Of a stretch of DNA of 64,000 nt, positions 61,443 through 62,223 are shown piece by piece. The notes under the pieces are model-generated. The model saw nothing but the letters and a program-made list of their open reading frames with translations. It did no database searches and was not told where the DNA came from. Position 1 is the first letter of the stretch; each line of letters starts with the position of its first letter. The position numbers were made by a program, and so were the translations under genes. The DNA is from Jannaschia sp. CCS1 (lineage in GTDB: Bacteria > Pseudomonadota > Alphaproteobacteria > Rhodobacterales > Rhodobacteraceae). The stretch is taken from contig NC_007802.1 in NCBI RefSeq assembly GCF_000013565.1, positions 2,728,001 to 2,792,000 of the forward strand. The letters are read 5' to 3'.

Positions 61443-61630
61443 GGGATTAACCCTAGGGAAAGTAACGAAAATGTGTCATGCGCACGCTGCATAGCAGCAT
61501 TTCCGTATCGTCCATTGTGCATGTGCAGCATTCGCTTATCTTCAGTCACAACAGAACGGTAACAAAGAACCACCCGGGCCGAAGGACGGACAGAACTCTC
61601 CTCGCCCAAACGATGAAATTGAGGATTACC

Positions 61631-61852
61631 ATGGCCTATATCACAGGCAACCGCACATACACCACGCCCCTCCTTCAACGCGTCGTCGCGATCCGCGATA
61701 CCGCGATCCAAGCTTACACCAACTGGCGCGTGTACCGGAACACTCTGAACGAGCTGCAGGACCTTTCAGCCCGCGAGATGGCTGATCTGGGGATCAACCC
61801 CTCGATGATCCAGCGCATCGCTCTGGAAGCAGCTTACGGCAAACAGGCCTGA
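61631..61852 (+). CDS. DUF1127 protein, CcaF1-like
   Basis: The 73-residue protein ends in a DUF1127 domain: VYRNTLNELQDLSAREMADL followed by GINPSMIQRIALEAAYGK. ATG 61631 has GAGG six bases upstream; the reading extends to 61478 but without support. In Rhodobacter sphaeroides a DUF1127 protein (CcaF1) is encoded directly upstream of, and co-transcribed with, the CcsR small RNAs under heat and oxidative stress sigma factors, and acts as a small RNA-binding protein. The same arrangement is seen here: hairpins with CCTCCC loops start about 20 bp past the stop. A specific sigma-factor promoter could not be assigned in the 188 bp upstream. Confidence 0.88.
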   Translation: MAYITGNRTYTTPLLQRVVAIRDTAIQAYTNWRVYRNTLNELQDLSAREMADLGINPSMIQRIALEAAYGKQA

Positions 61853-61872
61853 GCGACACACGACATACCGGC

Positions 61873-61890
61873 CCCCGTCCTCCCACGGGG
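61873..61890 (+). ncRNA. CCUCCC hairpin 1
   Basis: CCCCGT pairs with ACGGGG around the loop CCTCCC (61879-61884): a 6-bp stem whose loop is the motif alone. Confidence 0.8.
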
Positions 61891-61901
61891 TATCCGGGCC
61901 A

Positions 61902-61937
61902 GCGGGCTGCGCTCTACCCTCCCTTGGGCGCGCCCGC
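61902..61937 (+). ncRNA. CCUCCC hairpin 2
   Basis: GCGGGC (61902-61907) pairs with GCCCGC (61932-61937), continued after one bulged T by GCGC with GCGC. The loop contains CCCTCCC at 61917-61923. Confidence 0.8.
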
Positions 61938-61971
61938 CTCTCCATACCGGTCCTAAGTCGGGCCAGATATC

Positions 61972-61997
61972 CGGCCTTCTTCCTCCCATTGAGGCCG
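61972..61997 (+). ncRNA. CCUCCC hairpin 3
   Basis: CGGCCT (61972-61977) pairs with AGGCCG (61992-61997); the loop holds TTCCTCCCATT. Confidence 0.8.
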
Positions 61998-62008
61998 TGA
62001 TCAGCGGA

Positions 62009-62037
62009 ACCGCTCCTCCTCCTCCCTTCGGAGCGGT
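62009..62037 (+). ncRNA. CCUCCC hairpin 4
   Basis: ACCGCTCC (62009-62016) pairs perfectly with GGAGCGGT (62030-62037). The 13-base loop contains the full CCTCCTCCC motif. Confidence 0.82.
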
Positions 62038-62046
62038 GCCACACGA

Positions 62047-62080
62047 CAGACCGCGCCTTTCCTCCCATCGGATCGGTCTG
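62047..62080 (+). ncRNA. CCUCCC hairpin 5
   Basis: CAGACCG (62047-62053) pairs with CGGTCTG (62074-62080); the 20-base loop holds TTTCCTCCCATCGG. Confidence 0.8.
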
Positions 62081-62088
62081 GATCATAC

Positions 62089-62121
62089 GGCAAGCGTTCT
62101 CTCCTCCCTTGGACGTGCGCC
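62089..62121 (+). ncRNA. CCUCCC hairpin 6 (imperfect)
   Basis: GGC pairs with GCC, and after a 2x2 internal loop GCGTTC pairs with GGACGT using two G-U pairs. The loop contains CTCCTCCC. It is the weakest stem of the array. Confidence 0.65.
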
Positions 62122-62128
62122 ATACGAC

Positions 62129-62159
62129 GGCCCTGCCCTTTCCTCCCATTGGGCGGGCC
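62129..62159 (+). ncRNA. CCUCCC hairpin 7
   Basis: GGCCC plus GCCC, with one bulged T, pair with GGGCGGGCC (62151-62159). The loop is TTTCCTCCCATT, almost identical to that of hairpin 3. Confidence 0.8.
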
Positions 62160-62166
62160 AGATTTC

Positions 62167-62212
62167 GGCGGTGATGATGTCTTCCTCCCAGAACATCGTC
62201 ACCGCCTTTTTT
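62167..62212 (+). terminator. CCUCCC hairpin 8 and Rho-independent terminator of the array
   Basis: A 14-bp stem with one G-U pair (62167-62180 with 62193-62206) encloses the loop CTTCCTCCCAGA and is followed by six T (62207-62212). The terminator hairpin itself carries the array motif. It ends 12 bp before the stop of the convergent Lrp gene. Confidence 0.93.
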
Positions 62213-62223
62213 CTATCACAATG

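Follow-up and report, generated by a model that had tools for sequence, protein, structure and literature searches.

What kind of locus is formed by the short DUF1127 gene and the hairpins downstream of it in Jannaschia sp. CCS1, are its hairpins arranged in pairs or singly, and what might they regulate? The gene lies in a stretch of 64,000 nucleotides that was analyzed in full and is referred to here as the window. The kind of locus is itself already known, as it is a member of the ccaF1-CcsR/CIN1/"cuckoo" system. The ccaF1-CcsR1-4 operon of R. sphaeroides is described as comprising a small DUF1127 gene, CCUCC-loop hairpins behind it and a terminator, and CcaF1 as an RNA-binding protein involved in CcsR maturation (PMC10253847). 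Cuckoo RNAs are characterized as having a conserved loop motif, helices without sequence conservation and a position near short DUF1127 genes (PMC4504443, PMC10253847), and are defined as comprising two to four hairpins (PMC4504443). What is added here is the survey of relatives, the pair register, a single change from six to eight hairpins, the LysR-type boxes and the prediction of uptake genes as targets; the LysR-type nature of the boxes, the link to uptake genes and the single origin of the eight-hairpin state are what we infer from these comparisons.

A DUF1127 gene followed by eight CCTCCC hairpins

The gene occupies positions 61631-61852 on the forward strand, encodes a CcaF1-type protein of 73 amino acids plus stop codon and is preceded by a likely Shine-Dalgarno sequence, GAGG, at 61621-61624. 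The protein scores 50.3 bits against Pfam family PF06568, well above the cut-off of 23.3. Only 26 nt separate the end of the gene from the first CCTCCC, and eight hairpins follow on the same strand within 339 nt (61868-62206). Their eight CCTCCC copies are packed into 311 nt of one strand, while the 64-kb window as a whole is not enriched for the motif (42 found, 50 expected).

Hairpin 1 (61868-61897, with CCTCCC at 61879-61884) and hairpin 2 (61902-61937, motif at 61918-61923) form the first putative unit, which is separated from the remainder by a motif-free mini-hairpin at 61949-61964, visible in the whole-region fold. The second putative unit consists of hairpin 3 (61971-61999, motif at 61982-61987) and hairpin 4 (62006-62040, motif at 62021-62026), the third of hairpin 5 (62047-62080, motif at 62061-62066) and hairpin 6 (62089-62121, motif at 62103-62108), and the fourth of hairpin 7 (62129-62159, motif at 62142-62147) and hairpin 8 (62167-62206, motif at 62184-62189), the latter continuing into a T-tract at 62207-62212. 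When the region 61853-62215 is folded in one piece (-153.7 kcal/mol, z -5.45, none of 100 shuffles equally stable), all eight CCUCCC motifs are unpaired and located in hairpin loops. In separate 50-nt windows seven of the eight stay in a loop, the exception being hairpin 3, which adopts another fold. Because two of 200 shuffles that fixed the motifs and permuted the intervening letters also reached eight hairpins (mean 3.5, by a lax local criterion), the evidence from this single sequence is good but not overwhelming, and it is the comparative evidence that decides.

The first-pass annotation had described a CcaF1-like gene followed by eight hairpins with differing stems and CCTCCC always in the loop, the last of them doubling as terminator. 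The PF06568 match and the whole-region fold bear out this description, and hairpin 8, with its uninterrupted stem at 62167-62206 followed by T62207-62212, is a probable intrinsic terminator. It is absent from a simple terminator scan of the window, since that scan allows loops of up to 8 nt and the loop of hairpin 8 is larger; the scan found six sites where 2.3 were expected, one of which (61957-61975) lies inside the array. The recurrence of CATAC linkers, also claimed in that annotation, held up only in part: four exact copies are present (starting at 61864, 61943, 62084 and 62121), that is before hairpin 1 and in linkers 2-3, 5-6 and 6-7, but these are just three of the seven linkers. Across the genus only ATACC ahead of hairpin 1 is invariant; the copies are poorly conserved as candidate RNase E linkers, and CATAC was rejected as a conserved linker, the first copy alone being kept. 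Also discarded was a strict alternation of the letter flanking the loops (A behind odd-numbered motifs, T behind even-numbered ones), which fails in relatives. The motif-free mini-hairpin and the upstream promoter elements described below are additions to that annotation.

Motif-pattern searches of the genome revealed no second array. A triple-motif pattern gave six overlapping matches, all within the array (control 3), and a double-motif pattern two, both within the array (control 3). The genome carries three further DUF1127 genes (L001, L003 and L004), none with a hairpin array and none with CCTCC within 800 nt downstream. One of them, L004, directly precedes a gene that by eye resembles a FAD-dependent oxidoreductase.

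Conservation in relatives and covariation of the stems

A protein search over 61 genomes found the gene in 31, including all 13 searched genomes of the genus, the present one among them. The survey comprised 30 loci (of 41 match rows) and the best 80 of 464 matches, less four duplicates, giving 106 rows; two of these (L020 and L085) are one stretch, which leaves 105 distinct loci, and spacing and box counts use the 106 rows. Because similarity to the 73-aa protein was the basis for choosing the loci, the survey is silent on DUF1127 at large, and close relatives within it are not independent.

Among the matches listed, motif hairpins occur downstream of 103 of the 105 distinct DUF1127 loci, with 2 to 16 per array. 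Absence of loop conservation in relatives, which the first-pass annotation had named, together with absence of a CcsR/cuckoo model match, as an outcome that would speak against its reading, was not what we found. In total 760 motif hairpins were counted in the surveyed loci, 753 of them with CCTCCC, by a criterion that itself required CCTCCC or CCTCCT; the opposite strand yielded one and upstream stretches of like length three. The two loci lacking an array among these matches are L026 and L033, the latter retaining TGCTGCATTGCGGCA upstream. The longest arrays are those of L056 and L092, with 16 motif hairpins each, and L024, with 15. In L056 (Flavimaricola marinus), five near-equal CcsR1 matches follow each other 89 nt apart, as if they were recent tandem copies.

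All 13 genomes of the genus carry the DUF1127 gene with six to eight hairpins at one syntenic site, flanked by an MFS gene on one side and an Lrp-LysE pair on the other. The hairpin count is six in seven species and eight in five (in L014 the script counted seven, hairpin 6 missing the criterion, and eight were counted by eye). The remaining species (L017) has seven intact hairpins, its fourth having degenerated to CTCCCTCC; here one array module has been lost naturally. A tree of the neighboring proteins, covering 17 loci, groups the eight-type species with L017 in a single clade (support 0.933), its deeper branches being weakly supported, and the eight-hairpin state would therefore most simply have arisen once, through gain of one pair.

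The stems were examined in an alignment of the six species with longer arrays, which was preferred over the poorer alignment of all 13 species mixing six- and eight-hairpin arrays. Of the 90 pairs, 27 have changed on both sides and still pair (shuffled mean 11.6, reached in 0 of 500 shuffles), and slid structures gave one to seven such pairs; the test favors this structure, itself obtained from the alignment being tested. The helices of this structure correspond to hairpins 1 and 2 (helices 1 and 2), the mini-hairpin (3), hairpins 3, 4 and 5 (4, 5 and 6), hairpin 6 (7 and 8), hairpin 7 (9) and hairpin 8 (10), two-sided change affecting five of 11 pairs in hairpin 1. The mini-hairpin is 100% paired in the six species, with two-sided change in two of its five pairs. 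In L012 it has acquired CCTCCC. In the fold of all 13 species, 24 of 52 pairs covary.

Invariant columns in the six species amount to 43 of 48 in the motif, compared to 101 of 180 in stems (79 vary) and 38 of 127 elsewhere. In these alignments, the stems are maintained through compensatory change while the loop motif is the best-kept part, in agreement with the earlier proposal that constant loops on drifting stems reflect selection. Three features of cuckoo/CcsR (CIN1) RNAs were found: the motif in the loops, diverging stems with a kept loop, and a short DUF1127 gene on the same strand. Together with the gene family, the architecture, a last hairpin that resembles a terminator and the conservation of the locus among relatives, which include Cereibacter johrii and Luteovulum (Cereibacter) azotoformans, both related to the type organism, they support the initial assignment to a ccaF1-CcsR-like (cuckoo/CIN1) locus.

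As in R. sphaeroides ccaF1-CcsR1-4, a DUF1127 gene, CCUCC-loop hairpins and a terminator follow each other at this locus, and C. johrii, a member of the genus of R. sphaeroides, likewise carries four pairs of motif hairpins, eight in all (R. sphaeroides itself is not among the fetched loci). Unlike in ccaF1-CcsR1-4, the hairpins here are mostly tightly spaced, the protein is 49% identical to that of C. johrii and the covariance score is far below threshold. With the cuckoo/CIN1 RNAs the locus shares the conserved loop, the unconserved helices and the DUF1127 neighbor, but these were described with two to four hairpins, whereas the array here has eight and those of relatives up to sixteen.

Promoter elements and candidate targets

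Two conserved elements lie upstream of the gene on the forward strand. The distal one, the palindrome CGCTGCATAGCAGCA (consensus TGCTGCATAGCAGCA) at 61485-61499, is a probable LysR-type regulator site. Among the matches listed, 79 of 106 rows have it upstream with two mismatches or fewer, as against none of 106 shuffled upstream regions; in the genome it is found at this place (one mismatch) and one other (two mismatches; control 1). The proximal element, ATTGTGCATGTGCAGCAT at 61514-61531, contains TGCA-N6-GCAT at 61518-61531 and is a second probable LysR-type site, overlying a possible -35 element. Among the matches listed, 86 of 106 rows (86 of 105 distinct loci) have TGCA-N6-GCAT in the 260 nt ahead of the gene, as do all 13 loci of the genus, compared with three of 1060 shuffles, which, like all shuffles used for box counts, preserve base composition only. 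ATTGTGCANNYGCAGCA occurs exactly only here in the genome, with three more places at one mismatch (control 1), and 91 of 106 rows among the matches listed carry ATTGTGCA-NN-TGCAGCA (61514-61530) with no or one mismatch. Both elements are conserved as far as Cereibacter. A possible -10 element, TATCTT (61537-61542), is suggested by TANNTT in all 13 rows of the genus alignment; a simple sigma-70 scan gave no promoter at the locus.

These boxes recall rhizobial regulators. TGCA-N6-GCAT is given for the S. meliloti NfeR1 promoter, where it is said to match the LsrB site, and the VtlR motif is described in Brucella targets that include DUF1127 genes. The distal palindrome resembles this VtlR motif: at most three mismatches separate the two in 88 of 106 rows among the matches listed, against 0 of 530 shuffles, and the stricter GCAT-N3-TG-N3-T is found exactly in only 12 of 106 of these rows vs 14 of 530 shuffles. 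LsrB is called unique to Rhizobiales in one paper, while another places VtlR/LsrB across many Alphaproteobacteria. A LysR-type regulator gene beside trxB, as in rhizobia, was not seen by eye among reading frames of at least 120 aa within 1.5 kb on each side of the one trxB above cut-off. We regard a LysR-type activator of the locus as likely. A limited search of the open literature turned up nothing on control of ccaF1-CcsR by a LysR regulator, from which we do not claim that no such report exists. For R. sphaeroides ccaF1-CcsR an RpoHI/RpoHII promoter is reported (PMC10253847), and RpoH and LysR-type inputs may both act.

The rhizobial parallel extends to the loop motif. A family of hairpins with the anti-Shine-Dalgarno motif CCUCCUCCC and a variable number of modules has been proposed to block ribosome sites (PMC3927594). 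NfeR1 (ar14) is described as carrying CCUCCUCCC in each hairpin loop on drifting stems, with mRNAs of substrate-binding proteins as validated targets, and in both NfeR1 and AbcR the anti-Shine-Dalgarno motif is reported as a proven base-pairing seed (PMC10746234, PMC8844928). AbcR1/AbcR2 (ar15), with the motif CUCCUCCC, are described as controlled by LsrB or RpoH1 and as targeting ABC transporters. The locus shares with NfeR1/ar14 (RF02344) the TGCA-N6-GCAT box and, by prediction, targets encoding substrate-binding proteins; it differs in that NfeR1 has three hairpins and, in the accessible part of the source, no mention of a DUF1127 partner, and in that the match here reaches 39.1 of the 58.8 bits required. 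With AbcR1/AbcR2 it has the anti-Shine-Dalgarno motif in common, and their ABC-transporter targets and LsrB control parallel the predictions made here, but their structure is another one, with two distinct anti-Shine-Dalgarno motifs and no tandem array.

Target prediction at GGGAGG ribosome sites, as suggested in the first-pass annotation, was carried out with two patterns. The pattern TGGGAGGAA-N2-9-ATG has 15 sites in the genome (reversed pattern 0), and by Pfam eight of the 15 reading frames encode periplasmic substrate-binding proteins. A second pattern, AGGGAGGA(A/G), has 17 rows corresponding to 16 distinct sites, of which eight precede such genes; 13 frames were scanned here and three of less than 60 aa left out. 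Taken together, 16 of 31 loop-complementary sites of GGGAGGA type precede genes for substrate-binding proteins vs 0 of 26 control frames (Fisher about 1e-6), in a post hoc test for which the loop supplied the first pattern and the second was picked once the result of the first was known, and whose control, AAGGAGA, comprised the first 30 of 86 sites with 26 frames of at least 60 aa, at a spacing of N4-8 rather than N2-9. The lone AAGGAGGAA site, however, also stands ahead of a substrate-binding protein gene, so that strong sites may generally mark uptake genes instead of reflecting co-evolution with CCUCCC. AAGGAGGAA is a near-perfect match to the 16S tail. With the spacings tested, the counts of ribosome sites before ATG in this genome are one for AAGGAGGAA, 15 for TGGGAGGAA and 86 for AAGGAGA, and near-perfect 16S-tail sites thus seem rare. 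The target test agrees with silencing of the NfeR1/AbcR type yet does not prove targeting. The mRNA of flhR is a known CcsR target, and a glutathione-dependent formaldehyde dehydrogenase is found in the genome. C1 metabolism and pyruvate dehydrogenase, which the first-pass annotation names as what CcsR1-4 adjust in Rhodobacter, are at most candidate targets in this organism.

Pair register, mechanism and rival explanations

The eight hairpins most likely represent four two-hairpin CcsR-like units. Among the matches listed, 77 of the 103 arrays have an even hairpin count. In even arrays outside the genus the median motif spacing is 64 nt between pairs and 40 nt within pairs, the gap between pairs being longer in 57 of 64; inside the genus the medians are 45.5 and 40 nt, with a longer gap between pairs in 11 of 11. 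Even counts and alternating spacing suggest two-hairpin units, with which the genus difference of six vs eight, one pair, is in keeping. At gathering score, Rfam reports nothing in the window, and at E up to 1 it gives five weak matches, including CcsR1 and ar14. The covariance-model check recommended earlier did return CcsR1 (RF02791), on hairpins 3+4 (61966-62047) and 7+8, but at 18.0 and 15.2 bits, far below the gathering score of 65.3. This failure says little, because the same threshold rejects six of eight pairs in the two Cereibacter loci, three of four in each: both in C. johrii and in L. azotoformans the placement of the model coincides exactly with four successive pairs, of which only the first exceeds the threshold. 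The locus is accordingly not filed under RF02791, which leaves its wider cuckoo/CIN1 kind unaffected.

A different view of the same hairpins is less probable, though by no means negligible: each would act mainly on its own, or all together as one long RNA or sponge with many sites, the number of loops being what counts. Motif spacing in this species (39, 64, 39, 40, 42, 39 and 42 nt) is near-even after hairpin 3, and the two-hairpin register here therefore rests mainly on relatives. Odd counts, moreover, occur in 26 of the 103 arrays among the matches listed, and NfeR1 is reported to work in this way, with three redundant motifs per RNA (PMC10746234, PMC8844928). The ar14 model spans the last three hairpins (62083-62211; 39.1 bits, E 1.4e-5, below the gathering score of 58.8) and attains its gathering score in the long arrays of L024 and L056; for the present locus the likeness to ar14/NfeR1 is a resemblance, not membership. 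Against single modules stand the prevalence of even counts, the longer gaps between pairs, the genus difference of one whole pair and the register of the CcsR1 model on the Cereibacter pairs. We regard the pair register as demonstrated in relatives and as likely in this species; the odd arrays, and the regular distances here from hairpin 3 to hairpin 8, leave some doubt.

That the CCUCCC loops instead titrate the DUF1127 protein or another RNA-binding protein, in autoregulation or as a sponge, appears improbable. Tandem identical loops beside the gene of the binding protein would suit a sponge, CcaF1 of R. sphaeroides is reported to bind RNA with a role in CcsR maturation (PMC10253847), and among the matches listed just two of the 105 similarity-fetched loci are without an array; yet the motif is an anti-Shine-Dalgarno sequence and reportedly a proven pairing seed in NfeR1 and AbcR, and the three other DUF1127 genes of the genome have no array. 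Most remote of all is the notion of ordinary 3' stabilizers or terminators that protect the DUF1127 mRNA and have no role in trans. GC-rich hairpins directly 3' of a small gene, with a terminator-like last one, would fit it, but stabilization does not require a fixed loop, the loops here are better kept than the stems, and CCTCCC is common to nearly all of the counted hairpins under a count that admitted CCTCCC or CCTCCT.

Taken as a whole, the data are best explained if this Rhodobacterales bacterium has a ccaF1-CcsR operon at a CIN1 locus, with hairpins of the "cuckoo" RNA family, an explanation to which, mechanism included, we assign a probability of about 0.85. In such an operon, a LysR-type activator would drive a single promoter, from which the DUF1127 gene and the eight hairpins would be transcribed together up to hairpin 8. 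If R. sphaeroides is a guide, RNase E, aided by the DUF1127 protein, would then cleave the 3' portion of this transcript, and the resulting small RNAs would most likely be four CcsR-type units of two hairpins each. Their CCUCCC loops would pair with GGGAGG ribosome-binding sites and repress translation under stress, copy number presumably setting the dose and the stems merely keeping the loop open; the main output would be repression of uptake genes encoding periplasmic substrate-binding proteins.

A broader proposal, tentative and in our estimate somewhat short of even odds, is that in Rhodobacterales the ccaF1-CcsR arrays play the part that LsrB-NfeR1/AbcR circuits play in rhizobia, in which case a LysR regulator of LsrB/VtlR specificity would switch on the array, the number of loops (2 to 16) would set the anti-Shine-Dalgarno dose, and the output would be silencing of uptake via GGGAGGA sites of periplasmic binding proteins. 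The present analysis extends a known stress small RNA system to another genus, with a clear hairpin count and a likely register. Arrays in nature range from 2 to 16 copies of one seed, a series that makes the question of why there are so many copies testable. Finally, judging from the promoter boxes they have in common and from the connection with uptake genes, the Rhodobacterales arrays and rhizobial NfeR1/AbcR may be one regulatory idea realized with different RNAs.
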